Shown piece after piece: positions 3,519 to 30,804 of a DNA stretch of 47,428 bases. The first letter of the stretch is position 1; every line of letters begins with the position of its first letter. Position numbers and translations under genes: made by a program. Source of the stretch: a virus; the IMG/VR virus record IMGVR_UViG_3300021365_000030, positions 1 through 47,428 of that record. One strand, written 5' to 3'. The notes below the pieces were generated by a model. The model ran no database searches. It saw only the letters and a list, made by a program, of their open reading frames with translations, and was not told the DNA's origin.

Positions 3519-4290
3519 TGTACAAAATTATATAAGGTATAAAACAGATGTTAAAACATCTATAGCTAATCTTGAAGGTAAATTTTACGATGAGTACACT
3601 AAAGATGAACTTATAATTAAGTTTATGCCTTTAGTTGAAAACTTAGCTAGAAAATTTTCAACCAGTGATCAAGCTTCCGGTATATTAAGTATTAATGACT
3701 TGATACAGATAGGTAATGAAGCTTTAGTTAAAGCTGTGAATAAAATAGACTGGTTAGTTATAGATGAATCACCTGATGTAGAAAAAACTTTAAAATCATT
3801 TTTAAGTAAACGAATCAAAGGTGCAATACGTAGAAGAATAGATATAAACAAAGGTGGTATGAGAATACCTGAACATAAGCTAAACGAAATACGTAAGAAT
3901 CCAGACAATGAAGATCTAAATAAAATATTTATAACTAGTATGTTTGCTTCGTTAGACAGTAGTCATACTAGTAAAGATAATACTTATAAGAACGATGACA
4001 ATAATATGAGCTACGCTCAGTCTATTGAAGATGAATCAAAACCTTATAATATAGATTTTATAAATGCTTACTTGATGGGTATAATGAAACAGTACCTTAG
4101 TAATGCTGAATACGATGTGCTTAGATTAAGTTACGGTTTAGACTGTGAAAAACACTCAGCAAAACAAATTGCTGTTAAGTTAAATATAACTGGAGTTAGT
4201 AATTATGTGCGAATATCTGAGATAAAAAAGGCTGCAATAGACAAGTTGATAGCCAACGTAGATAGCTCGCAAGTGATTGACTTTCTGTAA
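3505..4290 (+). CDS. Sigma-70-family RNA polymerase sigma factor (phage-encoded)
   Basis: The 261-aa product has the sigma-70 layout. Region 2 spans about 33-86 (FMPLVENLARKFS, then SINDLIQIGNEALVKAV, the core-binding and -10 helices). A region 3-like GGMRIPEHKLNEIRK lies near 117. Region 4 spans about 198-247 (LSNAEYDVLRLSYGL, then KQIAVKLNITG as the HTH). Such factors bind host core RNA polymerase and redirect it; no phage RNA polymerase was seen, so this is the best candidate for late-gene switching. The region-4 helix is divergent, so the promoter consensus cannot be guessed. An insert near 135-185 is Asp/Asn-rich and probably a flexible linker. Confidence 0.85.
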   Translation: MKKYNVQNYIRYKTDVKTSIANLEGKFYDEYTKDELIIKFMPLVENLARKFSTSDQASGILSINDLIQIGNEALVKAVNKIDWLVIDESPDVEKTLKSFLSKRIKGAIRRRIDINKGGMRIPEHKLNEIRKNPDNEDLNKIFITSMFASLDSSHTSKDNTYKNDDNNMSYAQSIEDESKPYNIDFINAYLMGIMKQYLSNAEYDVLRLSYGLDCEKHSAKQIAVKLNITGVSNYVRISEIKKAAIDKLIANVDSSQVIDFL

Positions 4291-13672: not shown

Positions 13673-13701
13673 TTATGCTATACACTTCTGTATATCTAAT
13701 T

Positions 13702-13734
13702 AAAAAAGGGCTCTCGTTATGAGGGCCCTTTCTT
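13702..13734. terminator. Bidirectional rho-independent terminator
   Basis: A GC-rich stem AGGGCTCTC / GAGGGCCCT (9 bp, one G-T wobble) closes a five-base GTTAT loop. It is preceded by an A-run and followed by TTTCTT, so each strand reads stem then T-rich tract. It lies exactly between the convergent early (+) and late (-) blocks and would stop both. Confidence 0.88.
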
Positions 13735-13740
13735 GGTTAC

Positions 13741-13779
13741 AGGAACGTTGGGTATGGTACGCCCATTATATTTGTTCCT
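13741..13779. repeat. Second inverted repeat in the convergent gap
   Basis: An outer 6-bp arm AGGAAC / GTTCCT encloses an inner TGGG / CCCA pair. It begins directly after the main terminator and touches the stop codon of the minus-strand thioredoxin-like gene. There is no following T-tract, so it may protect the late mRNA 3' end rather than terminate transcription. Confidence 0.4.
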
Positions 13780-14098
13780 ATTTATTTAATTCGTCGACAG
13801 CTTGCTGTATTTCTTTAGGATCTACAACTAATTGCATAGATAATCCACCGTGCCATATTTTTTTTAACTTCTTATTTTTATCAAATAATATTATAGCAGG
13901 AACTGATTTTATACTTTTCTTAAATTTCTCAGGTTGAGAATCGTAGTCTACTTCTAGTATCTTTACACCTTTTATTGATTTTAAAAACTTATAATCGTTT
14001 TTATGGTTCCAGTCTGAGTTCATGTAAAGCAATGTTACTTGTTGTGAAAACGAGTTTAAAGAAAATAGAAATACAATTAAAATTAGAATTTTTTTCAT
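13778..14098 (-). CDS. Secreted thioredoxin-fold protein lacking CxxC
   Basis: The first ~19 residues (MKKILILIVFLFSLNSFSQ) form a signal peptide ending in SFSQ, a style typical of flavobacterial exported proteins. The mature ~85 aa have a thioredoxin-like pattern: a first strand VTLLYMNSDW, a helix, ILEVDYDSQ, and the cis-Pro segment SVPAIILFDKNKK near 65-77. The catalytic CxxC is replaced by a segment without any Cys, so redox activity is unlikely. It is the last gene of the late block, in tight order after small membrane genes. A role in the cell envelope during lysis or superinfection blocking is speculation. Confidence 0.7.
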   Translation of the reverse strand: MKKILILIVFLFSLNSFSQQVTLLYMNSDWNHKNDYKFLKSIKGVKILEVDYDSQPEKFKKSIKSVPAIILFDKNKKLKKIWHGGLSMQLVVDPKEIQQAVDELNK

Positions 14099-14100
14099 GG

Positions 14101-14379
14101 TTATTTATTTATGATCTCAAATAGTTTTTCATCTATCTTGTCTAGTTTTTTACTGTTATTATCTACTTTTTCATTTATATTTATTATAGTTTCACGAACT
14201 AGTTGATCTTTTAAATCATACTCCGTTCTATTTATAGTAGGTTTAGGTAGTTCTTTTGCAAGCTCAATATCCGACTGCAGAGTAAAGTATACTGAAGCTA
14301 TAGATATTGCACCAACAACTATTATGCTTATAGTTTTCAAGTCTAAAGTTACTTGAGTGTTTTCTGATATATTAGTCAT
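14101..14379 (-). CDS. Single-span membrane protein with coiled-coil tail (possible lysis accessory)
   Basis: The 92-aa product has a short polar N-terminus, one membrane segment (ISIIVVGAISIASVYFTL, about 17-34) and a long charged helical tail (NRTEYDLKDQLVRETI, then a coiled coil to the end). The topology resembles i-spanin- or holin-like phage proteins, but no signature proves either. It lies two bases before the thioredoxin-like gene and five bases after a small peptide gene at the end of the late block, where lysis genes are often found. No endolysin is recognised nearby. Confidence 0.6.
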   Translation of the reverse strand: MTNISENTQVTLDLKTISIIVVGAISIASVYFTLQSDIELAKELPKPTINRTEYDLKDQLVRETIININEKVDNNSKKLDKIDEKLFEIINK

Positions 14380-14384
14380 AGTTT

Positions 14385-14462
14385 TTATTTGTACTTCTTA
14401 AACATTAGTTTATATAGTAGGCTGTTCCAAGTTTTCTGTATTTTGTCGATTACTTTTTGCAT
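14385..14462 (-). CDS. Possible 25-aa basic peptide
   Basis: An ATG frame encodes MQKVIDKIQKTWNSLLYKLM plus FKKYK, an amphipathic basic helix with a Trp. It lies 12 bases after the preceding small gene and five bases before the membrane-protein start, matching the tight spacing of the block. Peptides this short are hard to prove. The amphipathic character would fit membrane interaction. Confidence 0.4.
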   Translation of the reverse strand: MQKVIDKIQKTWNSLLYKLMFKKYK

Positions 14463-14474
14463 GCTTAAATTTTT

Positions 14475-14597
14475 TTATTTTGGTACACAGTTAGGAACCT
14501 TTCTATTACCTTTCATTTTCATACCAACTTGCTTATATTTTTTCCAGCAAGGCCCTTTTTTAATTAATTTTTTTAGTAACGGTGCTTCTTCTTTCAT
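14475..14597 (-). CDS. Small Cys-containing conserved-looking peptide (40 aa)
   Basis: The product starts MKEEAPLLKKLIKKGPCWKK and ends with the KxVPNCVPK motif. The combination of PCWKxYKQVGMKxKGxxxVPNCVPK recurs in my memory in marine phage proteins, sometimes as the tail of larger structural proteins, here as a separate gene. The two Cys could bind metal or form a disulfide. It begins nine bases after the giant-protein stop and has an A-rich leader. The function is unknown. Confidence 0.62.
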   Translation of the reverse strand: MKEEAPLLKKLIKKGPCWKKYKQVGMKMKGNRKVPNCVPK

Positions 14598-14606
14598 AAT
14601 ATATTT

Positions 14607-17600
14607 TTAAAATTCATCAAATGTTATCCCTCCGGATCGTTTTTTCTTTTTTGTAGTTTTCTTTTTCTTACTCTTTTTATTTTTCTCTATACCTAATTCC
14701 CAGTCTTGCCAACCAGCTGCCATAGCTATTCTTTCCCACACATCATAATCCTCGTTTAAAGCGCCTTGTATGTTTTGCGACTTACGTAAAGCTCTATCAA
14801 CCGGAATATTTGTTGTTGCTGAAATAACGTTAGCCATAGCCATGTATGCTGGATTATCTAAACTAAACTTCATGTCATCAAATGCTCCATATTCAGCTGC
14901 TTTTGATGCGTTTACTAATTTCTTATACTTAGATCCCACGGTTGGAGATATGCTAACTATTTCTTTAACAGCTTTAGAGTATTTAGGATTCTTTTTGCTA
15001 GACTCACTGTTTATAACCATAAGAGCATTCTTCACTTGAGCTGTTATTGCTCCTGGTATACCAGTACCTCTAAGTAATGAATCAGCCATACCATTAGCAA
15101 CTCTTCCTGATTTAGACAATAATTTTTCATCTTGCTCATCATCAGCGAAAGCTAAGCCAAATAAAGCATTTTGCACTACATTAAATATTAAGTTCTGCAC
15201 AAAACCGTAGTAAACGATTTTAGACGTGTTTTCTCTCCAATCACCTCTTTTATTAGCAAGGTCTAACATAGCTTTTTTCTGCAACCTAGCATACTGCATT
15301 GGTGTATTAGCAAAAGCTAAAACAACTCTACCTAAGTTACTAGCCTGTTGTTGACTTATCTTGTCTGTTCCAGATGACTGTTGAGATTTTTCAGATATAT
15401 CCTTAAAATCTAAAAAAGCTTTTTCTTTAGCCTCTACCTCAGATAGCCCTTGCTTTTTATAAGTGTTTATTCTATTTCTATAGAAAGTCGCACCACCTGA
15501 AGCTATAGCAAAACTATCAGCGTATTTAGTAAATACAAAACCTTTTTTTAGTATTGTGTTTATTATACCTCTAGCACCTGAATCAGCAGCTATTTCAGCC
15601 TCACTTACATTTAATTTTAATCCATCACGTCTAGCTGTTAAGTAGTCAGAGTTCATTATCTCTAAGAAATCTTTAGAATATTGCTTTACATCTACCAACC
15701 TAGCACTAGCTTTTAAAGGATTGTTATCTGTCCAGTTTATAAAGTTTATACTAGATAACGTCTGTAAAACCGCAGATCTAGTGTTTAAAAACATTATGGC
15801 ACCTACAGAATTATTTATATAATCTAAAGCTCTATCACCCGCAGTGTTTTGTGAACTTCTATTTTTACCAGACTGCATCCTTTCTAAAGTACCTTCTAAT
15901 GCTTTTCTATATTTCTTACCATAAGCTGCCTCTAGCTTATTCAAATTAGCTTCTGAAAATATTTCATCTTTATTTTGCTTCCACTGCTCTAAGTACTTAG
16001 CTCTTTTAACTTTACCAAGCAATGTTCTAGCATCGCTAGTTAACGTACCACTAAGCCAGTTTTTACCTGGTTCAGCCCAGCCATCACCTTTTGTTGTTGA
16101 CAAAAGTTCATTAGCAAAAGCTTCATATGTTGGGTTATCTTTTATAACTTTATTTAGTTCAGCTAAATCAGATTTGCTTAAACCAGGAACTTCTACACCC
16201 ATTTTTGTCCACATGCGAACTCTTAAAGCTTGCTCGTTAGTAAAACCTGTTTCATTTTTCTTTCTTAGTTTCTTAGGTATTATACCTAGTTTATTTTTTA
16301 AAGCTTTAACATCGTTAGCTAATGATATTTGATCTCTAATAATATTATCCTCAGCTCTAGCAAATGGATCAAATAAGTTTTCTTTGTAGAATTTAAGTGC
16401 CTGTTCACCTTTTTTACCTTTAGGTAGAGTCTTGTATAACAAACCAGCAAAATCTTCAGCAGTAGGTGATATAAATATATCAAATCTACCCTTACCTTTA
16501 CCCATTATTTCAGCCTTAGCTGATCCAAACGTTTTTTCTGAAGCTATGCCTGTTTTTTCCTGTATTATATCGTTAAATGTTTTTCCTAACTTTTTGCTAA
16601 ATTTAGCTTGCTGAACTTTACTTTTAACATCTACTACACTTAATATTTCTTTAACAGCTCTAACATTTCCTAAATGATCATCAGCAAAGTAAAAATCATT
16701 GTAACCGTCAGCCGCTTTATCTATCATCCATCTAGCTTTAGCTTGCGGAGTACCATCACCTAGACCTGTTATGTTTTCCAGTGGAATATTTAATCCCATG
16801 CTATCTAAAAACTCTTTTATAGGTCCAGCAGCGTCGGCTGGTCTAGCAGTTAATACAAACATGTCTCTTTTACCTGGGCTTTCACTTATGAACTTAGCTA
16901 CATCAAACAAAGGTCCTTTAGCACCTTTCATAACTTTACTAAACTCAGAAAAATCCCACTCAGCACCTTTAGCCTCAAGCTCACCTGCTCTTTTTGCAAA
17001 CTCAGTAGCGGTTAAAGACCCTTTCTTTCCATCAGGCATTTCATACAACACATTACTTTTAGTTGTAGCTAATGTATCATCAAAATCAAATACTCTTATT
17101 TTTTTAACAGGAGATTTAAGGTTTCTAGCTATAGATAAAGCTTTATCTATTTTACTTAAGTTTTCTAAAGACTCTTCATTAGATACTTTTTTAGAAAATC
17201 TAAGAATTTTAGGTGTATTTTCATTATTTACTAAAGTTGCTTTTGTTATAACATCAGCCAACTTAACGTATTCGTTAATTAAACCTTTAGCTTCGCTTCT
17301 AGTTACAGTGTTTAATCCTTCTAGTAAACCAGCCTCGCTTAATATAACAGATTCCATTATTTTATTCTGTTCTATTACAACATTTTTATTTTGCTCAAAC
17401 TTCTTAGGTACAACTACATTATACTCCTTAGCCTTAGTTTCGTTACCTTTATATATATTGTTTGGATTTAAACCTACGTACTCATTTTTAGCATTTTTAT
17501 ACGTATTAAAGTATCTTAAATCAGAGCTAGGAACTTTGTCCCAATCTTCTTTTTTACCAGACTCTACAGCTTTATTAAGTTGCTTCATCAACACTGGATG

Positions 17601-20600
17601 AGATGTTCCACCTGAGTTAGACCACTTATTTCCCTCAGAGTCTACTAAATTTCCTTTTAAGGTGTCATTTTCATTCTTTAAAGTATACTGTATATAATTA
17701 TCTTTTATCCACTTTTTATAATACTCTAATGATTGTTTAGCGTTAGGTTTTCCTTCTATAATATTCTTATACAACTGCACGCGTATATTAGCATGTTCAA
17801 TAGCTTGAAAAACGTGCTCATCTGTTGTTTCTTTTTTTCTTTCTAAAGCTCCTACCTCTCTACCTATAGCTGTTGCTTGATTTCTATTAGCATTTGCATT
17901 TAAACTAGGGTTATATATATACTCTCTTAAAACAGCAAAATCCTCAGGACCTGTTTTAGCAATAGCTAATTCTGCGTCTATTTGAAGATCTACACCTTTA
18001 TCATGTAGCTTTTTTAATTGTAAGTTCTTTTTCCAACTAGGACCATTTTTACCTCTAAAGGATTCTTTAAAAGCTTCTAGCTCTTTATCATTAAAACTTC
18101 TCTCATTCTTCTTAGCATCCTCTTTAACTTTAGTTAAATTTATTAACTCGTCATTAAGTATAGCTTGCTCAGCCTCAGTCCTAAGCTTTTTATCAACTAT
18201 TCTTCTAGGATCTGATATAATATCAAAACCTCTCTTACGCAGCGAGCTGATTTTATTGCCTGACGTCCAGTTTGTTGGTCTAGCAAATCGATCAACTGGT
18301 AGAAACTTAGGAAAAGTATTTACTAATACCTTTTGCTTGGCGACTCTATCCGTTCTAATTTTATTTAACGCTTTTTTATCTACCTTAGAGTCTAGTTTTG
18401 CTTGACCAGATTCTTTTCTTTTCTGAAATTTAGCACCAGCCTGTATTCTCTTACCTTGTTCAGGTATTAAAGTTTCTAACGCTCTATTTCTTATATGAAA
18501 ATCTAACGCTGCTTTTATATGCTGAGCATCTCTATATATTGGTTTTTTCTTACCTTCACTGTCGAGTTGATTAAACTCGTACTGCTTACCATCATACCCT
18601 TCTAGTGTGACGTTTTTACCCTTTATTATATCTGTATATGTTTTTAAACCACCAGTTAATTCACCTGCCTTATTGTATAATACCTTACCTATCTTTGTTT
18701 GTAATATTCCAGTAGCTTTACCAGTGTCATCCTTACTTCTAGGTAATCTAGCAAAATCCGATGCTGCATTATCTATTAAAAACTGTCTAGCTCTAACAGC
18801 TCCTTGTTGATCAAGTTTTTGTAAGTTTCTTTGTTTTTCTATAAGAGCAGAGACTGTTTTTATACCAAACATGTCTGCATAAAGCTGCGCTAATTCCTGA
18901 GGTATTTTACCAGTCTCTTTAAATCTACTAACTGATCTATCTTTAAAAGATTCTTTTACAGTACTAGATATCTTATCCTCAATAGCTTGTTTTTCACTCT
19001 TGTTAGTGTCTAAGGATTTTTTAAACTCTGGAGATATATAGTTAGATTTGAATTTAGTTGTTTCTGTAGGTTTTTTAGCCAACTTATCTACAGCAACACT
19101 GGTCTTAGTAGATGTGTCTACAATTTGTTTAGCTTGCTCAGAATCTGTACTAGTTCCATCTAGTTTTTTCTCACCTATGTTTTTAGCTCTTTCTAATATT
19201 TCAGCTTGTCTTCTACCAAGAAAATTTGGACCTAGAACTGTAGTTACCTTACTTTTCTCTGCATCAAAATCTTTTAAAAATTCTTTATTCCGACCTGGAA
19301 ATATACCTTGAAGTTGCTCCTTTACAGCTGTCTTGACAGACTCTATAGGTATAGAACCTGTTGGGTTAAACTTTATAGAGTTACTTATAACTGGCCAATT
19401 AGCCTCTACTATAGCATCTATAGCTCCAAACTTTTCTTCAGGTTTAGAAGAAGGTGAGTTTATGATATCAACTAATTGCTCGTTTTCTATAAGACCTTCT
19501 TTGAATAAATCTATATATTGCTTACCTTTAGGTGATATGTCAGAGTCCCGTCTACTTATCGACTTTGAAGGCTTTTGACCCTCTACCTGAACACCTTCAG
19601 CAGCTATTGAGATATCTTTAGCAGCTTGTATACCTTTTTCTTCTCCTTTAGAGTAGCTCTTTATCAGCTCAAACAAGTTTTTACCAGTGTCAGCATTTAA
19701 CTCCAGTTCTGGCATACCTTTTTTACGTAGAAATGGAACAAACTTTTCCATAGCGTTACCTACGTTTTCTTTAAACACTATACTTTTTTCTGTTATAGCA
19801 TCTGATAAAACAGTTAAATACTCTTCATAGTATTTACTAGCATCTAGCTCCTTACCTTTAGAATCATATCTGTAGTTATCGTCAATACGTTTTTGAACTA
19901 ATTCTTTTTGCTTAGGAGTTAACTCATTTAAAACATCGTCAATTAGTTTTATACCTTCTTCAGTTACGTTACCAGTTTTATCTTTAAAAGAATCTCTTAA
20001 AACAAAGTGTCCAGCCTCGTGTTTATCTACAGTTATATTTCTAGTTTCTTTAACTACAGCTTCATTTACATAATATACCTTATTATTAGGATCGTAAAAG
20101 CCGTCAGTTTGTTTAACATCTTCTTTACCATCAAAAACTTCTTCATATTTTTTCTGAAAATCATCAACAGATCTAATTGATACGGACTCACCCTCTTTAG
20201 TAGCACCTAACACATCCTCAGCTTGAGCTTTGTTTTCTTGTCTTTGTTTTAGGTAGTATTGATCTAGTTTGTCTTGTAGTTTATCGTACTTGTAACCTCC
20301 AGGATTATAAGCTTCAAGGTCTTTTGTTAAAGACTCTAGCTCTTTTTCCTGTCCTTGATTTTTATTTTTTATGTTTTCAAGAGCCTTTACCTTACCTCCT
20401 ATCTCGAAATACTCATCAATAAACTTATAAGATTCTGCTCTTTCTTTAGTACCATAGCCAGCTTTAAAGCTAATATTGTTATTTAAAATATCTTCAATAA
20501 CAAATTCTCTATTCCAGAGACCGTCAAGTGATTTAGAAGAAGGGTTCGCACCCATCCTAGCATAAATTATAGGTAGAGGAGTATTAACTAGAGCATTATT

Positions 20601-23021
20601 ATCCTTATCGTTAAACTTCTCACCTTTTTTCATTTTCTGTATAAGTATTCTTACACTTTCATCTGTAGGTTTTAAAGCACTTTTATCCTCAGCCTCAAAT
20701 CTTTCTTTAGCTAAATTAAGTTCAGCCTCGGCTTCTAATATGTTATAGTTTTTGTTAGCAGACTCTGCTTCTTTTTTAGCTTGTTCCTCTGTTATTTGTT
20801 GTGTCTTAAGCTTAGCATCTATACCTGCCATTTTTTCAGCTCTAGCGGCATCTATTTCGTTTATAGTTTCCTCACCTGGTTTCCTAACCGACTCAGCATC
20901 TATACCAGTTATTTTAGCAGCTTTATTCACGTATGCTGGGTTTAAGTTTAATAAACGCATATCTCTCTGAGCAGCCGCAAGTATACCGTTTTTACTAAAC
21001 GCTGATTTAGTTCCTAGTAAAGCCATTTTAGCGGTTTCACCAAGATAATGAAGAATAAATTCTTCTGGACTTTGTTCGAAGTAAGTACTCTCACCTCTAG
21101 GCCCATAACCAATACCTTCTGGATTCTGTATAGCCTCTAAAACTGTAGCAAATTCAAAAGAAAAAGCACCAGCACTAGCGTTAACAAATCTACCACCAAC
21201 ATCTTTAAGAACGTCAGATTTAGATAATTGTGCCATTACCGGGGAAAATATTGTTTTCGAAGGTATAGCTCTTAGTAAGCCAGAACCTAAAGAATTACCT
21301 CCACCTAGTGAAAATCCAAATGTAGCTGTAGCCCATTCTTGCTCTCTAGTAGCTTGTTGAGATAAACCTAGTGTTGTTTTTGTTGTTTCTAAGCCTGTGA
21401 AAACAGCGGCTTCATCTAGACCTTTTATAACAAAGTCACCAGCTTTTCTAAGCACTTTACTTGACTTAGCGGCTTTACTACTTTTAAAAGACTTATCCAG
21501 TAACTTGAACCCTTTTTGTATCTTATTTCCTCCTGCGCCTTTAAACAACATCAACTCTCCAACAAACATAGTCAGGTCAACAGTACCACCACCCACTACA
21601 CTCAACCAATTTTGAGATAAAGCTTCATCTAGGTATTCGTCGTTTATACCACCTAACCCAGCTTTTTTAGCTTCTTTTACAAATGCTCTATTAATAGTGT
21701 ACTGGGGTTTAGGCATAGCATCACCGCCAGTCATGTCTATTTTTTCTAAAATATTTTGACCCGCACTAAACCAAAAACCTTCCTGCTCTTTACTTAATGG
21801 ATCCGTGTTTGTTTGAATTGCTTTATTTAAAACAACATAATTTTCCAAAGCAGTGTTATAAGCTTTAGCTAAAGGATGATTACCATTGATTTTACTTATA
21901 TTTTCAGGTAATTCGTTTGTTGATGCTATTTGTTGCGCTCTTTCTAAATCTCCATACACAGTTTCTTCTGATCCAAAAAAATCTTTAACTACATTTGATA
22001 TGATAGCTGGACCTGTTTGAGACTCTTTAGTTATTTCTTCTTCACCATTTTCCTTTATAAAATCTGATATTCTATTAGATATACCCACTAAATTAGAGTA
22101 TGACTTAGTTAATTGATCTTGTATTTTGCTTAACTCTGTAGTTTTTGCTATTTCAGTTGCTTTTTCAGATCTCGAGTTCTCTTGTTTTTTATCTTCTTCA
22201 GATAAATCCTTATACTGTACTAAGTCTCCGGTGTTTATATTATAAAGTTCTCTTGACTCATCATTTCTTATCTCTTGTATCTTGTCTAGTATACTTTGTT
22301 TGTCTTTGTCACTTACTGTTTTTAAACTAGAGTAAAGTGTTTTTAGTTCTTTATCAGCACCCTTTAATATATTACCTCCTTGGTTTAATACAAAATCATT
22401 TGACTTATCGCCATACTTTTTTATTATAACATTTAGAGCGCTGTTAGCTGCTTTATTTTGATCTTCAGCTTGAAGCTCAGCTATAGATACACCGTTTATT
22501 TTTTCATTTTGAGCGAAATCATCATAAGAAAAGCCACCTGTTATAGCACTACTATGATCGCCAAATATACCAGTATATTTCACCCCAGGCCCTCCAAGAC
22601 CTAAAATACTAGGTGTATTTATAGTTTGGTATTCGACACCCTTTCCAGTAGTTTTAAGGTATAAATCTGAAATATTGTCAGGAGAGTAGTTCCATATACT
22701 AGAACCAGCTTTACTTAAGGTTTTATTTATATTGTCTAACTTTAAATCTTCTTTAGTCTTTGGTGATTCCAAAGAAATATCTTCCGAAGGTGAATCCGTA
22801 ACGCCCGCTTGTGATGCTGTCATTGGTTGAGACACCACATCCGCACCCGCTGCAGCGTCTTGTTGAAAATTTGGATCAAGTAAGTCACTGTGTTTTATTT
22901 TAGGTTCAGGGTCTTTATCTCCCTTGATCTTTTTTAAGTATTCTTTAACAGTCATATTAGATTGTTCAGCTGCTTTCTTTATTTGATCGTCAGTATATGA
23001 AACATCCTTGTAAGTATACAT
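14607..23021 (-). CDS. Giant polyvalent virion-associated protein (internal/ejection protein candidate)
   Basis: This 2,804-aa protein occupies the place of T7 gp16 after gp14/gp15-like genes. The N-terminus (~1-45) is a short helical domain. At 1001-1005 HEAGH is a zincin-type metallopeptidase motif inside DKHEAGHFVLRDSF. Around 1975-2120 lies a HAD-type phosphatase: FDFDDT with nucleophile Asp1979 and Asp1981, Thr2058 (LTARP) and the acidic pair Asp2114-Asp2115 (FADDH). The C-terminal ~600 aa carry segments I recall from marine phage giant proteins (GAIMFLNTRSAVLQTLSSIN, FANTPMQYARL), then a Lys-rich tail. Such proteins are thought to enter the host with the DNA. Peptidase and phosphatase activities are inferred from motifs only. 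A family of 'large polyvalent proteins' with mixed enzymatic domains is the best match. Confidence 0.82.
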   Translation of the reverse strand: MYTYKDVSYTDDQIKKAAEQSNMTVKEYLKKIKGDKDPEPKIKHSDLLDPNFQQDAAAGADVVSQPMTASQAGVTDSPSEDISLESPKTKEDLKLDNINKTLSKAGSSIWNYSPDNISDLYLKTTGKGVEYQTINTPSILGLGGPGVKYTGIFGDHSSAITGGFSYDDFAQNEKINGVSIAELQAEDQNKAANSALNVIIKKYGDKSNDFVLNQGGNILKGADKELKTLYSSLKTVSDKDKQSILDKIQEIRNDESRELYNINTGDLVQYKDLSEEDKKQENSRSEKATEIAKTTELSKIQDQLTKSYSNLVGISNRISDFIKENGEEEITKESQTGPAIISNVVKDFFGSEETVYGDLERAQQIASTNELPENISKINGNHPLAKAYNTALENYVVLNKAIQTNTDPLSKEQEGFWFSAGQNILEKIDMTGGDAMPKPQYTINRAFVKEAKKAGLGGINDEYLDEALSQNWLSVVGGGTVDLTMFVGELMLFKGAGGNKIQKGFKLLDKSFKSSKAAKSSKVLRKAGDFVIKGLDEAAVFTGLETTKTTLGLSQQATREQEWATATFGFSLGGGNSLGSGLLRAIPSKTIFSPVMAQLSKSDVLKDVGGRFVNASAGAFSFEFATVLEAIQNPEGIGYGPRGESTYFEQSPEEFILHYLGETAKMALLGTKSAFSKNGILAAAQRDMRLLNLNPAYVNKAAKITGIDAESVRKPGEETINEIDAARAEKMAGIDAKLKTQQITEEQAKKEAESANKNYNILEAEAELNLAKERFEAEDKSALKPTDESVRILIQKMKKGEKFNDKDNNALVNTPLPIIYARMGANPSSKSLDGLWNREFVIEDILNNNISFKAGYGTKERAESYKFIDEYFEIGGKVKALENIKNKNQGQEKELESLTKDLEAYNPGGYKYDKLQDKLDQYYLKQRQENKAQAEDVLGATKEGESVSIRSVDDFQKKYEEVFDGKEDVKQTDGFYDPNNKVYYVNEAVVKETRNITVDKHEAGHFVLRDSFKDKTGNVTEEGIKLIDDVLNELTPKQKELVQKRIDDNYRYDSKGKELDASKYYEEYLTVLSDAITEKSIVFKENVGNAMEKFVPFLRKKGMPELELNADTGKNLFELIKSYSKGEEKGIQAAKDISIAAEGVQVEGQKPSKSISRRDSDISPKGKQYIDLFKEGLIENEQLVDIINSPSSKPEEKFGAIDAIVEANWPVISNSIKFNPTGSIPIESVKTAVKEQLQGIFPGRNKEFLKDFDAEKSKVTTVLGPNFLGRRQAEILERAKNIGEKKLDGTSTDSEQAKQIVDTSTKTSVAVDKLAKKPTETTKFKSNYISPEFKKSLDTNKSEKQAIEDKISSTVKESFKDRSVSRFKETGKIPQELAQLYADMFGIKTVSALIEKQRNLQKLDQQGAVRARQFLIDNAASDFARLPRSKDDTGKATGILQTKIGKVLYNKAGELTGGLKTYTDIIKGKNVTLEGYDGKQYEFNQLDSEGKKKPIYRDAQHIKAALDFHIRNRALETLIPEQGKRIQAGAKFQKRKESGQAKLDSKVDKKALNKIRTDRVAKQKVLVNTFPKFLPVDRFARPTNWTSGNKISSLRKRGFDIISDPRRIVDKKLRTEAEQAILNDELINLTKVKEDAKKNERSFNDKELEAFKESFRGKNGPSWKKNLQLKKLHDKGVDLQIDAELAIAKTGPEDFAVLREYIYNPSLNANANRNQATAIGREVGALERKKETTDEHVFQAIEHANIRVQLYKNIIEGKPNAKQSLEYYKKWIKDNYIQYTLKNENDTLKGNLVDSEGNKWSNSGGTSHPVLMKQLNKAVESGKKEDWDKVPSSDLRYFNTYKNAKNEYVGLNPNNIYKGNETKAKEYNVVVPKKFEQNKNVVIEQNKIMESVILSEAGLLEGLNTVTRSEAKGLINEYVKLADVITKATLVNNENTPKILRFSKKVSNEESLENLSKIDKALSIARNLKSPVKKIRVFDFDDTLATTKSNVLYEMPDGKKGSLTATEFAKRAGELEAKGAEWDFSEFSKVMKGAKGPLFDVAKFISESPGKRDMFVLTARPADAAGPIKEFLDSMGLNIPLENITGLGDGTPQAKARWMIDKAADGYNDFYFADDHLGNVRAVKEILSVVDVKSKVQQAKFSKKLGKTFNDIIQEKTGIASEKTFGSAKAEIMGKGKGRFDIFISPTAEDFAGLLYKTLPKGKKGEQALKFYKENLFDPFARAEDNIIRDQISLANDVKALKNKLGIIPKKLRKKNETGFTNEQALRVRMWTKMGVEVPGLSKSDLAELNKVIKDNPTYEAFANELLSTTKGDGWAEPGKNWLSGTLTSDARTLLGKVKRAKYLEQWKQNKDEIFSEANLNKLEAAYGKKYRKALEGTLERMQSGKNRSSQNTAGDRALDYINNSVGAIMFLNTRSAVLQTLSSINFINWTDNNPLKASARLVDVKQYSKDFLEIMNSDYLTARRDGLKLNVSEAEIAADSGARGIINTILKKGFVFTKYADSFAIASGGATFYRNRINTYKKQGLSEVEAKEKAFLDFKDISEKSQQSSGTDKISQQQASNLGRVVLAFANTPMQYARLQKKAMLDLANKRGDWRENTSKIVYYGFVQNLIFNVVQNALFGLAFADDEQDEKLLSKSGRVANGMADSLLRGTGIPGAITAQVKNALMVINSESSKKNPKYSKAVKEIVSISPTVGSKYKKLVNASKAAEYGAFDDMKFSLDNPAYMAMANVISATTNIPVDRALRKSQNIQGALNEDYDVWERIAMAAGWQDWELGIEKNKKSKKKKTTKKKKRSGGITFDEF

Positions 23022-23041: not shown

Positions 23042-24622
23042 TTAAAAAATTGGTAAATCACCAGTATCACTAAAGTCAAATATTTTATCAACTACACTAT
23101 CTATATTTTCAGAAACCTCTAAACTCTTGTTGCCTCTAAAATTAAACAGTGTTCTAGCTAAATTTTTAACTTGAGATTTATCTGACAAATCAAACTTCTT
23201 CATTTTTTTATTTCCAGTGCTTTTATCTGTCATAGTAAATTCAAGTATCTTAGTTTCTTCGTCGTAGTTTCTATCAGTAACTCTACTAGCATCTGGGCCA
23301 CCAATATTTGTCAAGTAAGATATAGGATCTTCTAAAAGATCATTAACAGCTCTATTAGCAGCGTTCATCTTGAAGTCTGTTTCTTCTTCTTCTCCTTCTT
23401 CTTGCTCTTCAACTTCTACAGCTGTAGGTTTTCCAATATTTTTAGTGTATATTGGATCGTTAACCTTCAAGTTAGGTATACCTAAGTTTTTCACATCATC
23501 TGGTGTTGCCAACCTCTTAGTGCCTAGTGATTCTAGATTTTTATGTACCATTTGACCAATTATAAAAGCCTCTCTAAGGGCTTCTGGAACTGATTCATAC
23601 ATAACTGCGGTTTCTTTATCCCATTTCAATCTACCTGTAATAAACTGTTTTTGCTGCTTCATCGAGTAAGACATTATTCCTTTAGCTTGAGATTTAATTA
23701 AATCCATGTAAGCTACATTGTCTTCGATAGCAGCGTTGTTTACAACCTGCTCTTTATACTGAAAACCACCTACAGTTCTAGTAGTTATATTTGGATAAAC
23801 AAATTCCTTTGTTAGTTGATTTTTATCATCAAATATATCAGCCTCTTGAAGTGTTTTATTTCTATCACTTTCAGCCATTACAGGTTCGAAAAATGATCCG
23901 TCCCATTTTGATAAATCTCTTTCAAATTTTATATTGACATATCCATCAGACTCTTTATAATCACCTAATAAATCAGCTTCTTTAAATTTATTATACACAT
24001 CACTTCCAACTTTTATCCGTGAGTTTATTTTAAGTATATTTGAATTATTATCGTTAGGAGCAATATTTATAGTACTTTCAACACCTGGCGTTTTTTTACC
24101 ATTAATAGCCATAACACCTATCAAATTAGATATTTCATCCCCACTAGCAGGTGCGTGACCATCTACTACTTGATCTATAGTTAAATCGTTAAACTCTTGC
24201 GCTCCAGTAGAAATATTGTTTATCTGGTCTTTACTATTTACCATGTAAGATTGAAAATTGCTTATAGCTTTTCTATACTCTTGCCTTTGTTTTTTATTTA
24301 AATTAGTATTCATACCTAGTTCAGCTGACGCATTCATAGCTGCTCCACCTTTTTCTTGAAATATTTTAGTAAGTTCATCTCTAACTCTAGTGTCTTTTAC
24401 ACCTGAAACAATTTTTAATATATCTTTATCTTGCTGTAACTCTGTGTTTACTAAAAACCTATTCTTAGCCTCGTCTATTTTTTTTTGTTTTTCTGCAGCT
24501 ATTCTCTTAGCTTCACTGTATTTATCTATACCGGAGCTAACAATGTCACCTATCTTACTAACACCTTGAGCCCATATCTCAGCTGATCTATCTACTATTA
24601 TTTGTGGATTTCTATAACTCAT
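23042..24622 (-). CDS. Internal virion protein (gp15-like position)
   Basis: The 526-aa product is mostly helical and charged: MSYRNPQIIVDRSAEIWAQG leads into a long amphipathic helix (IVSSGIDKYSEAKRIAAEKQ). An acidic run (VEVEEQEEGEEEE) near 395-410 precedes a C-terminal domain with DRNYDEETKILEFTM. No enzymatic motif is seen. It lies between a gp14-like and a gp16-like gene, where T7 has gp15, a core protein ejected to form the trans-periplasmic tube. The assignment rests on position, size and composition. The upstream leader is an A-run (TTAAAAAAAAAATATAAT) without a Shine-Dalgarno sequence. Confidence 0.62.
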   Translation of the reverse strand: MSYRNPQIIVDRSAEIWAQGVSKIGDIVSSGIDKYSEAKRIAAEKQKKIDEAKNRFLVNTELQQDKDILKIVSGVKDTRVRDELTKIFQEKGGAAMNASAELGMNTNLNKKQRQEYRKAISNFQSYMVNSKDQINNISTGAQEFNDLTIDQVVDGHAPASGDEISNLIGVMAINGKKTPGVESTINIAPNDNNSNILKINSRIKVGSDVYNKFKEADLLGDYKESDGYVNIKFERDLSKWDGSFFEPVMAESDRNKTLQEADIFDDKNQLTKEFVYPNITTRTVGGFQYKEQVVNNAAIEDNVAYMDLIKSQAKGIMSYSMKQQKQFITGRLKWDKETAVMYESVPEALREAFIIGQMVHKNLESLGTKRLATPDDVKNLGIPNLKVNDPIYTKNIGKPTAVEVEEQEEGEEEETDFKMNAANRAVNDLLEDPISYLTNIGGPDASRVTDRNYDEETKILEFTMTDKSTGNKKMKKFDLSDKSQVKNLARTLFNFRGNKSLEVSENIDSVVDKIFDFSDTGDLPIF

Positions 24623-24636
24623 ATTATATTTTTTTT

Positions 24637-25359
24637 TTAACCAGCGGCAATTAAAGAAGAGGCTATGTTACCAACACCACTTAAAGCACCGCTCCACGCT
24701 TGCGCTTTAGCTTGATTAGCTGAAGCTTCAGCGGCTTGTGCCTGTGATATTTTACCAGCCGCTCTATCAAGGTCTGCATCTGTTCTATTTTCTCGAGCTT
24801 GAAACATAAACTGTTTACCTGCCGCTTCTGTTGCTTGTACTCTCTGACCTTCTGATATAGCTATGCTTTGCATACGTTGTTGCTCAGCCATTTTAGCATT
24901 CATTAGGTTTTGCTCTCCTTGAGCTTTTAGTTTTTGGTTTTGAGCTTCTTGCTGTTCTATATTAGCAGCAACACCTTGTTTACTTTGTAACGCAGCTTGA
25001 GCTAAAGCTGTAGCGCCACCAGCAGAAGCACCTGTAGCTCTTATTGTGTCTAGTGTATTCGCTAAAGATATATCGGCTTGTTCTATCTGTATCTCAGCTG
25101 CTTTAGTTGCAACACCTAAATTTTCAAACGGGTTAGATAATTGACTACTAAGATCAGTAGCTAAACTACTAAGATCTTCTGTTGAAGCGTATGGATTTGT
25201 TATTTGCTGTCTAGAATTTTTTATTGATCTAAGCTCAGCTTCAGCTCTTTGCTTTTCTGATCTAGCTCTTCTAGCTGCTTTACCTGCCGCTCCACCAGCT
25301 ATAGCTCCACCTGCTAAACTTGCTGCCGCTCCAACGGCTAATGCTGTTACTACACCCAT
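24637..25359 (-). CDS. Internal virion protein, gp14-like (Ala-rich)
   Basis: The 240-aa protein begins with a glycine-zipper segment (LAVGAAASLAGGAIAGGAAG) that could insert into membrane. A long Ala/Gln-rich coiled coil follows, then another Gly/Ala-rich end (WSGALSGVGNIASSLIAAG). This layout is typical of T7 gp14-type ejection proteins, which form the outer-membrane part of the DNA conduit. Its position just before the gp15-like and gp16-like genes supports the call. Low complexity limits certainty. Confidence 0.68.
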   Translation of the reverse strand: MGVVTALAVGAAASLAGGAIAGGAAGKAARRARSEKQRAEAELRSIKNSRQQITNPYASTEDLSSLATDLSSQLSNPFENLGVATKAAEIQIEQADISLANTLDTIRATGASAGGATALAQAALQSKQGVAANIEQQEAQNQKLKAQGEQNLMNAKMAEQQRMQSIAISEGQRVQATEAAGKQFMFQARENRTDADLDRAAGKISQAQAAEASANQAKAQAWSGALSGVGNIASSLIAAG

Positions 25360-25362
25360 AAT

Positions 25363-25767
25363 TTATATTTTTTTTACTAATTCTTTAGAAGATTTATTGT
25401 CTATACTCCAACCAAGCTCTTCATGAGTTTTAATTAATGATTCATTTCTACCTATAGAGAACATATATTTTACGCCATTACTTCTACAAACTTCTTCAGC
25501 TGCATTTATTAAAAGTGCTATAGCTTGTTTTCTGTCAGCTTCTTTGTAATCTGGATTAGATACAACCCATTCTAATAAAGCTCCCTTAGAGTTAGTGTAA
25601 TATATGAAACCTGCCACGATAGGCACGTCTTTTTCAACCATCAAACCTCCTTTACCATTATCAGGTAAAAAATCTCTAGGTGGATTTTGCCATTCAGGCC
25701 ACTCATCCCACCAAGAACATAAGGTTTCCCAGTCGCTCTCTTTTAATTTTCTAATATTTAATTGCAT
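25363..25767 (-). CDS. GNAT-fold protein at the T7 gp13 position
   Basis: The 134-aa product has the N-acetyltransferase layout: an opening strand and helix (NIRKLKESDWETLCSWWDEW), a middle strand (PIVAGFIYYTNSKGALLEWV), a helix with YKEADRKQAIALLINAAEEV, and a C-terminal YMFSIGRNESLIKTHEELGW. The acetyl-CoA Q/RxxGxG/A loop is degenerate (EADRKQAIA), so catalysis is doubtful. T7-like phages encode a gp13-type protein in this exact place, between tail-tube and ejection genes. An assembly role for internal proteins is the more likely function. Confidence 0.65.
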   Translation of the reverse strand: MQLNIRKLKESDWETLCSWWDEWPEWQNPPRDFLPDNGKGGLMVEKDVPIVAGFIYYTNSKGALLEWVVSNPDYKEADRKQAIALLINAAEEVCRSNGVKYMFSIGRNESLIKTHEELGWSIDNKSSKELVKKI

Positions 25768-25777
25768 TTAATTTTAT

Positions 25778-27433
25778 TTAGTAAGCAGATGTCACATAGT
25801 CTGAGGACACCGCGAATAATTCAAGTGGTAAACTTCTGTTATCACTATCTGATTTTATTGTAACTGTTGAATAATACCCTTTAACACCGGTCATACTAGC
25901 TCCAAATACAACTTCTCCAGTTGTAGCTGGACTAGAGTTGACTAGATTAGCGTAGTATTTACCTTCTTTATTATCAAATCCAGCATGCACCGTAACTCCA
26001 TAATCTGGATCTGTATAAGCACCATCATCGAAACTAAGTACCTTGTTAGCGGTATCATTAAGCTCAAAACTTCTAGCCGCATTAAAGCTTGATACTTCCC
26101 AACCATTTGATCCTTCGTAATTTATAGTTTTAAACACTTTTGAAGTACTAGGATTTGGGTTGAATATAAACTCTATTGATGAATTATATTGAACACCATA
26201 TAAGTTGTTTCTGCTAGATATGTGATCGTAATGTTTCCAAAGCTTACCGCCGTTTACTGAATAGTAACAACTACCTAAACTAAAAGCTTGCTCTGGTTCA
26301 TAGTTAAAAAAGCTTGTCCAACCAAGAACAGACTCGTCAAAAGAAAGTGTTTCGTAATCAAAGAAGTTTATAGTTTCTCCATTACCTATTGTTTGCGCTT
26401 TGTTTACTGTTATATCTAGGCCATTTACCTCTGTAACTATTGTACCAGTTTTTAAGCCATTACCTCTAACCATTAAACCTACAACAATACCTTCTGCTGT
26501 ATCTACAGGTATAATATCACCTGTCACAGCGCTTGTCGTAGTTGTTACTAGAGTAGTTGCTGCTTCTTGCAAACTAACAACATACTGTTTATTATGTATG
26601 TCCCAAGCTCCATAAGATTTTCCACTTTCAGAAGTAGTATCTAATGAAGATAATTCATCTCTAAAGTAATCAATCATACCATAGTTAGATATCTCCGTTA
26701 TACCATCTCTAGATAATCTACCTACGATGTTCCTTCTCTTGTCTGTAAAGTATTTTCTGTAGCCATACACCGCAAAACTTTCTGGATTTTTACTTATACC
26801 GAAGTTTCCAGCGTAAGGTATTATCTGACCTATAACCAGGTTTGATGAAGTAACACTACCACCTCCTTCAGCGGAGTATATAGCGTCTTTATCTATAAGT
26901 GCTCTGTTTATTTTGTCTTCTTGAAATATTATAAGGTTTGTATCTTCAGCGTATAGTTTTTGTATACTACCATTAGCTGGATCAACAGATTTAGTTATAT
27001 CTTGACCAACGTTAAATACATTAGTATTATTAATACCTGTTCTAGAGTTAAATATACCTGAATATATTAAAGAGTTAAATCTAATAGATGAATTAGGTTC
27101 TGTTTCAACTAAATATGCTCTAGCACCATAACTAATGCTAGTATTATTAAAACCACCTCTTATTCTAGATTCTTCAACATACCAGCTAGTAAACGGCACA
27201 TCTGGAGCTGGAGAATTTTGAACTAAAGTTCCTTCTTGAATAGTACCACCATTAGGCCAAGTACCAGTAGGGTTTTGTGGAAAAGAACCAGCCAAGCCAT
27301 CCGGCACACCTGTAGATCCATTCCATGCGGCTGATACAATTCCTTTAGCCGTTTGTATATTGACTGGAGCATGAAGTACTGTCTTTTTCAAAAGAAAAGA
27401 ATTAAAATATTTTACTTCTATAGTTGCTGCCAT
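25778..27433 (-). CDS. Tail protein, beta-rich (nozzle / tail-tube type)
   Basis: The 551-aa protein is dominated by beta strands and short repeated segments of the propeller type (LYAEDTNLIIFQEDKINRAL, SYGAWDIHNKQYVVSL). Similar composition occurs in T7 gp12-type nozzle proteins. Residues ~295-345 contain an inserted module (GIVVGLMVRGNGL...VNGLDITVNKAQTI) that is also present in the 1,111-aa neighbour. It lies between that neighbour and the GNAT protein in a T7-like order. The start follows an A-rich leader with no Shine-Dalgarno sequence. Confidence 0.62.
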   Translation of the reverse strand: MAATIEVKYFNSFLLKKTVLHAPVNIQTAKGIVSAAWNGSTGVPDGLAGSFPQNPTGTWPNGGTIQEGTLVQNSPAPDVPFTSWYVEESRIRGGFNNTSISYGARAYLVETEPNSSIRFNSLIYSGIFNSRTGINNTNVFNVGQDITKSVDPANGSIQKLYAEDTNLIIFQEDKINRALIDKDAIYSAEGGGSVTSSNLVIGQIIPYAGNFGISKNPESFAVYGYRKYFTDKRRNIVGRLSRDGITEISNYGMIDYFRDELSSLDTTSESGKSYGAWDIHNKQYVVSLQEAATTLVTTTTSAVTGDIIPVDTAEGIVVGLMVRGNGLKTGTIVTEVNGLDITVNKAQTIGNGETINFFDYETLSFDESVLGWTSFFNYEPEQAFSLGSCYYSVNGGKLWKHYDHISSRNNLYGVQYNSSIEFIFNPNPSTSKVFKTINYEGSNGWEVSSFNAARSFELNDTANKVLSFDDGAYTDPDYGVTVHAGFDNKEGKYYANLVNSSPATTGEVVFGASMTGVKGYYSTVTIKSDSDNRSLPLELFAVSSDYVTSAY

Positions 27434-27468: not shown

Positions 27469-30400
27469 TTAAGGTATTGGAGTAAATTTAACAAAAAACT
27501 TTCTTCTACTAACTAAGTTAATTGGGCTACCATTGTCAGACACCACTAGAGAGAAGCTACTGTCAAATCCTGGAGTTGTACCCGTGAAAGGATTAGTATT
27601 TACTACAGTTGTACCGTTTTGTATTTCAAAAACCCCAACACCCCGACTCCACTCTATAGAGTATGTTAAATTATCTCCTTGTCTATTTCCACTAGCGTTA
27701 GATCCATTAATACCTGTTATTGTTTGTATTACTATTGAACCACCAAATCCAAAAACTTCTATTTCATTATTAGGTATAACGTTCGTTATAGTTGGTGTTA
27801 TATTTATCAATGGTTGATTAAACATAGAAACAGTATTTTGAGCGTCTCCCGGGTTTACTACTGTAACAAATTTGTAGTCAAAAATATTAGCAGGTGTATT
27901 TGTTTTGTATAAGAAGTATTCACCAACAGCTACTTGTACCTTAAATGTACCGTCTAGGTTATCTATAAGAGTAAACTTAGATGTTACGTCTTCAAGAGCA
28001 TCATCGGTAACCGTCATTACAATACTATCGAAGCTAGCTATATCGTTACCTAGTATATCTATAAACTTGAAATTAGTAGTTATATCATCTCCAGGTCCGT
28101 TCGCTTCAGAATGATTATATTGCCAATCAACGATCTGAGCTGCTTGAGGACTACCTTGTGATGCTATTGCTATGTTTAAATCAGATATTAAGCCTGATGT
28201 TGAAGTTTCCCAATATATATCTAATCTTGATTCTGTAGGTTTTGTTTCGAATATATTTATATTTTCAAACCTTTGATATGTTTGGTTTGGTGCGTATGGT
28301 AAATTTATTAAACCAAATTGATCTTCTACTACATTAGATGTAACAAACTCTGCCACAAAAGGATTTGATTCTGATCTAAAGAAAGCATAGTAAGGGCTGT
28401 TAGGATCAGTTACTGGCACAATAGCGGGACCTCCTCCATCAAATTGAAGTATGTCGAAAGAATCAAATAAGTCTTCTATTTGGTTTACAGTAAAAGATTT
28501 TCTTTCTGGAAAATACTGTTTACTACCAACAGTGTTAAATTCTGACGCTGTGTTTTCAACTCTACCAAATAGCTGAACAGAGCTTCTAAATTGTTTATCT
28601 TGAGCACCTACTTCTGATAAATCTCTTGGTATTTTATTTATGTTGTCGTTTAAAAGTGTTATAAATGTAGCGTTTTCATCTCTTAGCGGTATACTTCCAG
28701 GGTCATAATACGGTAGACCTTTCATAGCTCCAGCAGTATATACGTTGTAATAGTCTTGTTCTGTTTGTTTTACAACTATCTTGTAAGAATACCATCCAAG
28801 TGGATTATAATCAAGACTAGTTACATCTGAATTATACAAACCAGGTGTACCAGTTGTTTCGTTCCTGTCTATACCAACACCACTAAGTATTGAGTTAAAT
28901 AACATTTTAATGGAGTTTCCTGAAAAATCTATAGAATTGTTATTTGGGTTATATGGTAAATAAACTGTGTCGGCTCCAAAACCACCAGCACTAGCTTCAC
29001 CAACGTTGTTAGATAATATAACCGTTGATTGTCTACCAAATTTATCTGATAAAACAACTCCAACTTGATAGTTTCTGTTTTCTTTTAAGTTGTGATTTGG
29101 ATATTCTACAGTTGTTAGAGATGATCCAACTGATGAAACTTGTGCTTTAGTAGATGCAGCAACTTGGTAATCTATAAAGTTAGGCGGTGTGTGTTTATCT
29201 TGAAAATTACCATAAATAACTCTATTGCTAGAAACTTCCTGACTTAAAGCTTTTACTGGTATTTTATCATAAACCCTTATTATTTCGTCACTTGGAAGAG
29301 TTTTATAAGGTTTTTGTGATAAATAAGTATAATTAAGTACGTTTTCATTTCCTTGTATCTGTGAAACAGGTATTGTTTCAATAACCCTAACAGCCGTAGA
29401 GTCTGATTCTTTATATATAATATCTATGTCTGTTATTAAATAACTAGAAGATAAGTCATCAACCGCAGACGGAAGAGGTATCTGTAGATCTATCTTGTTT
29501 ACTTTATTTTCCATAAAGCCAACAATAGTACTAACAGGTGTTTGCTGCTCATCACCAAATATAAAATAACCATCTTGTTTAGGTATAAATGCTTCTTGAG
29601 TAAAAGGAGCTAATATAGAGTATTCACCATCAACGAATCTAAATCTATAGCTAAATCTAATAAATTTATCTTCTAGGTATTGAGGATCACCTGGAAAATC
29701 TTGCTCATAATAGGGGTTTTCTTTATGAAAAAATAATTGATTATCATCTAGTAGTGTTTGATTTTGACTAACAACTAATTCACCTTCATCACTCGCAGCT
29801 CCCGGAGTAAAACTAACAACTGTAGTGCCAGCAACAATACCCCCACCGGTGACAACATCGCCAGGGCTTATAAAACCTTGAACTTTATCAATATCAAAAG
29901 TATCTGTATTTACTACAGCCGCATCGTCCACGTAAGAAGTTCCTAAGCTAGGTAGTAGCTCACTGAAATTATCATACATTGTAGTTTCTAAACCTACAAA
30001 ATTAATATTTTCTGAGGTTGAAGATATGGTTTGAGGTTTATTAACTGTTATATCTAAACCATTAACAGCTGTGACATATGTATTAGTTGCTATTTCTAAG
30101 CCAGTAACACCTAAACCAGAGCTTATTCCAGTCGCATCAGCCACGGAGAACGTTTTGCTATCTGTAACAGTAGCTGTTGCATTTGTAGTTACTGTTGTTA
30201 CTCCAGTAGTTTCGCTTGGTTTGAATAGCTCTATTGATTGATAAGGATTATATTTAGCTACAGATATTTGATCCTCATTAACGTAATATACTGGATCTGT
30301 AAGTTCAGATGGATTTGCTAAAGTTGTGTTTATTTTTCTAGGTTGATTTCTATTATCTGTCCAGAATAGTAAATTTTCTAAAATATTTACACCTATAATA

Positions 30401-30804
30401 GGTCTGTTAGTAGAGAAGTTTAAAAAAGAGCCTTGAACAAGTTTGTTTTTTTGTCCACTTGATACGTTGTATGAATATATAAAGTTTTTAGCACTTTCAT
30501 TATATGTAGAAACACCTGAAGCGTAGGAATCTGTATAGTCTGTGAAGAATAAATATATTAAATTACTAGAATCATCAACAACATAGCCTATGCAAGTTAA
30601 GTTATCGCTGCCAGCATCAGCACCAAAATCACCGTTTACAGCTACAGCATTACCAAATATGTTTTCTAAAGCACCAACGTCTTCACCTTGAGATTTACTA
30701 ACCTGTATATTGTTAGCGTCTCTATATTCACCGTTTGGTATGAGTCTAGCATCTAAGTCCTTATTCATTTTGGACTTGATAAAAGCATTTTTAACTTCAG
30801 CCAT
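27469..30804 (-). CDS. Large tail protein (tail tubular B-like), 1,111 aa
   Basis: The N-terminus has the signature AFIKSKMNKDLDARLIPNGE followed by YRDANNIQVSKSQGEDVGAL. I associate this signature with a structural protein family found in many marine podovirus-like phages and their relatives. The remaining ~1,000 aa are beta-rich. Two tandem small modules sit near 205-365: one with VNGLDITVNKPQTI and one with ISPGDVVTGGGIVAGTTVVS. A C-terminal Ig- or cadherin-like domain is likely at ~1000-1111. The place after the adaptor genes and before the ejection genes matches T7 gene 12. Receptor contact by the C-terminal part is speculation. Confidence 0.68.
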   Translation of the reverse strand: MAEVKNAFIKSKMNKDLDARLIPNGEYRDANNIQVSKSQGEDVGALENIFGNAVAVNGDFGADAGSDNLTCIGYVVDDSSNLIYLFFTDYTDSYASGVSTYNESAKNFIYSYNVSSGQKNKLVQGSFLNFSTNRPIIGVNILENLLFWTDNRNQPRKINTTLANPSELTDPVYYVNEDQISVAKYNPYQSIELFKPSETTGVTTVTTNATATVTDSKTFSVADATGISSGLGVTGLEIATNTYVTAVNGLDITVNKPQTISSTSENINFVGLETTMYDNFSELLPSLGTSYVDDAAVVNTDTFDIDKVQGFISPGDVVTGGGIVAGTTVVSFTPGAASDEGELVVSQNQTLLDDNQLFFHKENPYYEQDFPGDPQYLEDKFIRFSYRFRFVDGEYSILAPFTQEAFIPKQDGYFIFGDEQQTPVSTIVGFMENKVNKIDLQIPLPSAVDDLSSSYLITDIDIIYKESDSTAVRVIETIPVSQIQGNENVLNYTYLSQKPYKTLPSDEIIRVYDKIPVKALSQEVSSNRVIYGNFQDKHTPPNFIDYQVAASTKAQVSSVGSSLTTVEYPNHNLKENRNYQVGVVLSDKFGRQSTVILSNNVGEASAGGFGADTVYLPYNPNNNSIDFSGNSIKMLFNSILSGVGIDRNETTGTPGLYNSDVTSLDYNPLGWYSYKIVVKQTEQDYYNVYTAGAMKGLPYYDPGSIPLRDENATFITLLNDNINKIPRDLSEVGAQDKQFRSSVQLFGRVENTASEFNTVGSKQYFPERKSFTVNQIEDLFDSFDILQFDGGGPAIVPVTDPNSPYYAFFRSESNPFVAEFVTSNVVEDQFGLINLPYAPNQTYQRFENINIFETKPTESRLDIYWETSTSGLISDLNIAIASQGSPQAAQIVDWQYNHSEANGPGDDITTNFKFIDILGNDIASFDSIVMTVTDDALEDVTSKFTLIDNLDGTFKVQVAVGEYFLYKTNTPANIFDYKFVTVVNPGDAQNTVSMFNQPLINITPTITNVIPNNEIEVFGFGGSIVIQTITGINGSNASGNRQGDNLTYSIEWSRGVGVFEIQNGTTVVNTNPFTGTTPGFDSSFSLVVSDNGSPINLVSRRKFFVKFTPIP

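Follow-up and report, generated by a model that had tools for sequence, protein, structure and literature searches.

Gene order at the locus

The window analyzed here is the whole IMG/VR record IMGVR_UViG_3300021365_000030 (47,428 bp). Open reading frames run off both of its ends and related contigs measure 59-68 kb, so the window is probably an incomplete genome. Its source is a marine phage whose host is probably flavobacterial; relatives found through the terminase are Flavobacterium elemo, Cellulophaga, Tenacibaculum and Maribacter phages and one uncultured genome. A structural operon occupies the minus strand from about 42 kb downward, in the order GroES-like protein, terminase (PHROG 6681), P22-type portal, MCP, ring-type proteins, muzzle, three smaller proteins (GNAT-like of 134 aa, 240 aa and 526 aa) and, last, a giant protein gene. 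The names MCP and ring were assigned by gene order together with PHROG 'virion structural protein' matches. Genes for DNA ligase, sigma factor, Erf, exonuclease, primase-helicase, thymidylate synthase and ribonucleotide reductase lie on the plus strand. The features around the giant gene are as follows.

27469..30804, minus strand: muzzle protein, N-terminal part (split gene); PHROG 14478
25778..27433, minus strand: muzzle protein, C-terminal part; Crassvirus muzzle C-terminal domain, Pfam PF25729, E=1.1e-14
25363..25767, minus strand: 134-aa GNAT-like conserved neighbor; PHROG 17252; synteny anchor
24637..25359, minus strand: 240-aa Ala/Gln-rich neighbor, candidate internal virion protein; syntenic with phi38:1 gp99, annotated structural
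23042..24622, minus strand: 526-aa neighbor at the position of crAss001 cargo protein 2 (gp46, 60.2 kDa; PMC10172136), a correspondence of position only
14607..23021, minus strand: giant protein gene, 2804 aa, last in the structural operon (ORF and synteny)
3505-4290: phage-encoded sigma factor

Family searches with the 526-aa neighbor (Pfam, PHROG) gave no significant match. The muzzle is encoded by two ORFs (1111 and 551 aa) in the window and in contigs L001 and L093, each half matching PHROG 14478, and phi38:1 and elemoF have a single longer gene at this position. The gene for the GroES-like co-chaperonin (41262-41867, minus strand) adjoins the terminase gene, as it does in the elemo, phi19:3 and Panino phages. 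Beyond it, a tail protein of at least 1,563 aa (42735-47426, minus strand; open at the window end) contains many near-repeated NGDF...W-type segments, which suggests duplicated binding modules.

In crAss001, the cargo proteins gp45, gp46, gp47, gp49 and gp50 follow the muzzle in gene order, and mass spectrometry showed them to be in the virion (PMC10172136). The window giant occupies the same slot, after portal, MCP, ring and muzzle, and is of similar size, and the muzzle C-terminal domain is common to the window phage and crassviruses (Pfam E=1.1e-14). The window phage groups with Cellulophaga phi38:1 and phi19:3 and the Flavobacterium elemo phages, none of them classed in Crassvirales; in our searches this group also includes the Cellulophaga phage phi13:2, which serves as outgroup in the crAss001 paper (PMC10172136). 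Position after the muzzle and size (PMC10172136) would also suit a subunit of a virion RNA polymerase, such as the crassvirus giants of the same slot (gp47, gp49 and gp50 of crAss001). We consider this identity very improbable because, unlike the crAss001 cargo, the window giant shows neither a DFDxD-type nor a single-subunit RNA polymerase motif in a scan of its sequence and has zincin and HAD domains instead, and because the phage has its own sigma factor (3505-4290).

Reading frame and domains of the giant protein

The giant ORF runs on the minus strand from 23021 down to 14607, ATG to stop, and the plus-strand translation of this interval is riddled with stops. The single open frame of 8.4 kb and 2,804 aa described in the earlier note, which left the strand unstated, is thus real. 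GC content is 0.45, 0.35 and 0.21 at the first, second and third codon positions, and the low third-position value fits coding DNA of an AT-rich genome. The residue positions reported previously for HEAGH (1001-1005), DFDDT (1979-1983), Thr2058 and Asp2114-2115 were all exact; Thr2058 lies in LTARP and the Asp pair in FADD. HEAGH is the sole HExxH in the protein; shuffles of the window giant contained HExxH in 0.3% of cases and the HAD motif set in 0 of 5,000. The whole giant had no significant match in Pfam, in the PDB or by tblastn, and the first lead for the HAD region was a PHROG match. Its parts are listed below; A2, A3 and A6 denote our alignments of the zincin, C-terminal and HAD regions.

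22767..23021, minus strand: conserved N-terminal segment, aa 1-85, common to relatives with differing middle
17166..22766, minus strand: central region, variable (aa ~86-1952), dissimilar in DNA to near relatives L002/L109 despite flanks of 93-94% identity
19602..20144, minus strand: gluzincin-type metallopeptidase-like domain, aa ~960-1140 (A2; hhalign to elemoF gp18)
20007..20021, minus strand: HEAGH motif, aa 1001-1005; H, E and H invariant in A2
19821..19823, minus strand: Glu1067, probable third zinc ligand (..EEYLTVLSDAI..); invariant A2 column E197
16527..17111, minus strand: HAD-superfamily phosphatase domain, aa ~1971-2165 (A6; PHROG 415; AlphaFold2)
17073..17087, minus strand: HAD motif I DFDDT, aa 1979-1983; D1979, D1981, D1982 and T1983 invariant in A6
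17019..17033, minus strand: nested-kinase site, aa ~1997-2001; P-loop domain here in contigs L004, L174 and L175, short loop in the window
16848..16850, minus strand: HAD motif II Thr2058, invariant in A6
16677..16682, minus strand: HAD motif IV Asp2114-Asp2115, invariant in A6, as is motif III Lys2095
14610..16526, minus strand: helical C-terminal region, aa ~2166-2804, conserved and ending in a Lys-rich tail (A3; hhalign to Gundel_1 gp74)

For comparison, 80 loci were fetched with the GNAT-like neighbor as anchor. The anchored IMG/VR loci and contigs L002-L004 yielded 52 long ORFs (>1,800 aa), a few of which are duplicate records of one contig. HExxH was present in 44 of these 52 syntenic ORFs, compared with 0.8% of shuffles. 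In A2 (25 sequences), whose identity to the window row is about 15-25%, H1001, E1002, H1005 and E1067 never vary. As judged from sequence, the metallopeptidase signature proposed earlier is therefore retained among relatives and followed by an invariant Glu. The zincin profile matched elemoF gp18 (hhalign, E=2.6e-6). AlphaFold2 predicted the HExxH and Glu helices in a low-confidence model (pLDDT 62.7), for which Foldseek matched no known zincin in the PDB. Single members weakly match several HExxH families in Pfam, as expected from the motif alone.

Iyer et al. 2017 propose self-processing for domains of this kind, and by analogy the peptidase may process the giant only. A different division of labor, which we regard as unlikely, is that the giant is indeed cargo, with the zincin acting as an assembly or maturation protease in the head that trims the giant or its neighbors and the HAD domain acting as a general protein or nucleotide phosphatase rather than in end-healing. 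The protease part of this alternative has a precedent in DdrB of phage P1, which is processed before packaging, as cited by Iyer et al. 2017 (PMC5512222).

The HAD catalytic residues (D1979, D1981, T1983, T2058, K2095, D2114 and D2115) are invariant or nearly so in A6, and the full motif set occurs in 21 of the 52 long ORFs, so the set noted before as complete is also conserved. AlphaFold2 modeled the domain with confidence (block pLDDT mostly 80-90) as alternating strands and helices, and motifs I-IV lie on this predicted Rossmann-like fold. The structure prediction thus favors a HAD assignment for the DFDDT segment. HAD entries are among the top PDB fold matches (prob 0.84-0.90, E 0.3-0.5), although HAD matches in the PDB are weak (E 0.3-1), and the viral Foldseek matches include entries titled 'Acid phosphatase' and 'Swiss Army Knife RNA repair protein HAD'.

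The C-terminal helical segments noted previously appear in the AlphaFold2 model as a helical bundle at ~2190-2390 (block pLDDT mostly 72-90); confidence is low beyond aa ~2600. The 31 sequences of A3 are 44-90% identical to the window row, and their profile matched Gundel_1 gp74 (hhalign, E=9e-9). Together with the Lys-rich tail and candidate hydrophobic helices at aa 475-493 and 2607-2625, this long helical C-terminus would fit a protein that serves mainly as an envelope-spanning ejection scaffold, T7 gp16-like, in which the enzyme domains are vestigial. Vestigial domains are hard to reconcile with catalytic residues that are invariant wherever the domains occur, whereas the surroundings of the zincin motif drift to about 15-25% identity, and we judge a mere scaffold to be quite improbable.

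Syntenic giants in related phages

A giant gene lies at the same locus in all six annotated phage records examined (1,691 to 3,859 aa) and in dozens of contigs. These giants are labeled structural in phi38:1, phi19:3, Gundel_1 and elemoF, labels that are annotations whose primary data we could not trace; the term mass spectrometry is absent from the Bartlau paper on Gundel and Calle. The last-gene giants of elemoF (gp18, 3694 aa), Gundel_1 (gp74, 2482 aa) and phi38:1 (gp101, 1691 aa) share synteny and structural annotation with the window giant. They gave no tblastn match at 1e-5, and the HAD domain was not found in them. Profile comparison detected homology to the window giant in elemoF gp18 (zincin) and Gundel_1 gp74 (C-terminus) and none in the giants of phi38:1, phi19:3 and Panino. 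With the HAD/C-terminal model, Foldseek matched viral proteins named polyvalent, as well as Gundel_1 and elemoC structural proteins.

A conserved frame and an exchanged middle

L002/L109 is 93.5% identical to the window over 13389-17165, which covers the downstream genes and the giant from aa 1953 to its end, and 93-94% identical over the MCP region, yet shows no DNA similarity across aa ~86-1952. In L003 and L004, at 87-88% identity, similarity likewise breaks off near aa 1972-2008. Among these relatives with 87-94% identical flanks, only aa 1-~85 and ~1953-end of the giant are shared, and the middle ~1,870 aa are swapped. The exchange boundary falls where the HAD domain begins on its N-terminal side. 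In the various relatives, the C-terminal region pairs with different central regions, with the HAD domain present or absent. We read aa 1-~85 and the HAD/helical C-terminus as a stable frame and the middle ~1,870 aa as an exchangeable payload. We claim no number of payload types, since clusters of the central regions were chained and their count depended on the threshold. Wholesale replacement of the middle among near-identical phages fits an arms race, and the swapped middles would amount to a natural payload collection on one delivery frame.

The giant gene of L003 and that of L004 are each interrupted by the insertion of one base, in one case within a poly-A run. The two contigs share a metagenome, so these splits are likely assembly or sequencing errors, and we attach no biology to them.

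A polynucleotide-kinase domain within the HAD domain in three relatives

The PHROG match of the HAD region was to PHROG 415, 'polynucleotide kinase', which 15 of 31 members matched (best 1.9e-8). In three contigs from different metagenomes (L004, L174 and L175), a P-loop domain of ~190 aa (GGPGAGKT) is inserted between HAD motifs I and II; L004 is 82-92% identical to the window in the HAD-domain part. This nested domain matches phage proteins at 8e-19 to 1e-2, several annotated as polynucleotide kinase and others as hypothetical. In the PDB it matches 4gp7 (E=0.0027), a chain that we take to be the Pnkp kinase domain of a bacterium. Shikimate kinase and zeta toxin follow closely behind it, so the kinase assignment relies mainly on the phage matches. 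The earlier guess that the phosphatase is of polynucleotide-kinase-phosphatase type thus gained independent support from PHROG 415 and from the kinase nested in three relatives. The window giant itself lacks the P-loop domain.

Phage RNA repair is known to use HAD phosphatases joined to polynucleotide kinases, as in the PKN-HAD family (PMC7824862). With T4-type Pnkp the HAD domain of the giant shares the DxDxT, Thr, Lys and DD motifs and the PHROG 415 match; it differs in sitting within a virion-type giant and, in the window copy, in having no kinase. Moreover, the kinase of the relatives interrupts the HAD domain, lying between its motifs I and II rather than being an N-terminal fusion. To our knowledge, a kinase nested in its partner phosphatase domain is an uncommon architecture, and it would be of interest in its own right.

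These matches also bear on the general-phosphatase part of the alternative described above. The weak PDB fold matches include Ceg4 and Eya2, HAD enzymes that act as protein-tyrosine phosphatases, which would suit a protein phosphatase; PHROG 415 and the kinase within the HAD domain of three relatives point instead to nucleic-acid ends. As for the type of nucleic acid, PF09414 and RtcB, sought as RNA ligases, were absent from 12 related records in searches whose controls worked, and PF09511 was absent from related records in a search whose control was silent too. An ATP-dependent DNA ligase is common among the related records and present in the window phage. Since a DNA ligase is encoded and an RNA ligase was not found, damaged ends of incoming DNA would be the likelier substrate.

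Proposed role of the giant protein

On balance, we lean towards the giant being ejected virion cargo of the polyvalent kind that is cut by its own zincin domain and delivers an end-healing HAD phosphatase. We infer that it would be packaged near the portal and pass through the tail together with the DNA or before it. The zincin domain would then cut the protein and free its working pieces. One piece would be the HAD phosphatase, of polynucleotide-kinase-phosphatase type, which would strip broken nucleic-acid ends of their 3'-phosphates and so allow a ligase to reseal them. This reading draws on the conservation of HExxH and Glu, the invariant HAD residues, PHROG 415, the nested polynucleotide kinase, the crAss001-like gene order, the giants annotated as structural, the Foldseek matches to polyvalent proteins, the swapping of modules and the DNA ligase. 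More tentatively, an end-healing enzyme (HAD, with a polynucleotide kinase nested in it in some relatives) might be injected as exchangeable cargo and repair host-inflicted breaks before phage expression. If the giant is ejected, nucleic-acid end-repair chemistry would be carried in the particle, ready before transcription. The interpretation in the earlier note is thus partly supported: the multi-domain giant in the cargo slot, the HExxH...E signature and the HAD motif set hold up, and an anti-defense role would be a further supposition. Within a limited literature check, we know of no description of such an activity for virion cargo.

The likeness to polyvalent proteins (Iyer, Burroughs, Anand, de Souza, Aravind 2017, J Bacteriol, PMC5512222) lies in the very large size, the late structural neighborhood, the combination of several unlike enzyme domains, the HExxH...E metallopeptidase-type hub and the modular architecture. 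The window giant has at least two disparate domains (HExxH...E peptidase-type and HAD), each conserved in relatives, and is encoded among late virion genes. It had no Pfam match to described polyvalent families, so we say that it would work like a polyvalent protein and claim no membership of the class. LPD38 was considered for the C-terminus and gave no match at E<=1 in a search whose control was also silent. The words phosphatase and polynucleotide kinase are absent from the main text of PMC5512222. Unlike the described polyvalent proteins, the window giant is uncharacterized over most of its middle.

Among the giants of other phages, ADP-ribosyltransferase-like motifs were seen by eye in elemoF (aa ~1110-1180) and Panino (aa ~640-710), and the Gundel_1 giant has a weak GNAT match (Pfam 0.0018). 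These segments suggest that the giants carry varied payloads.
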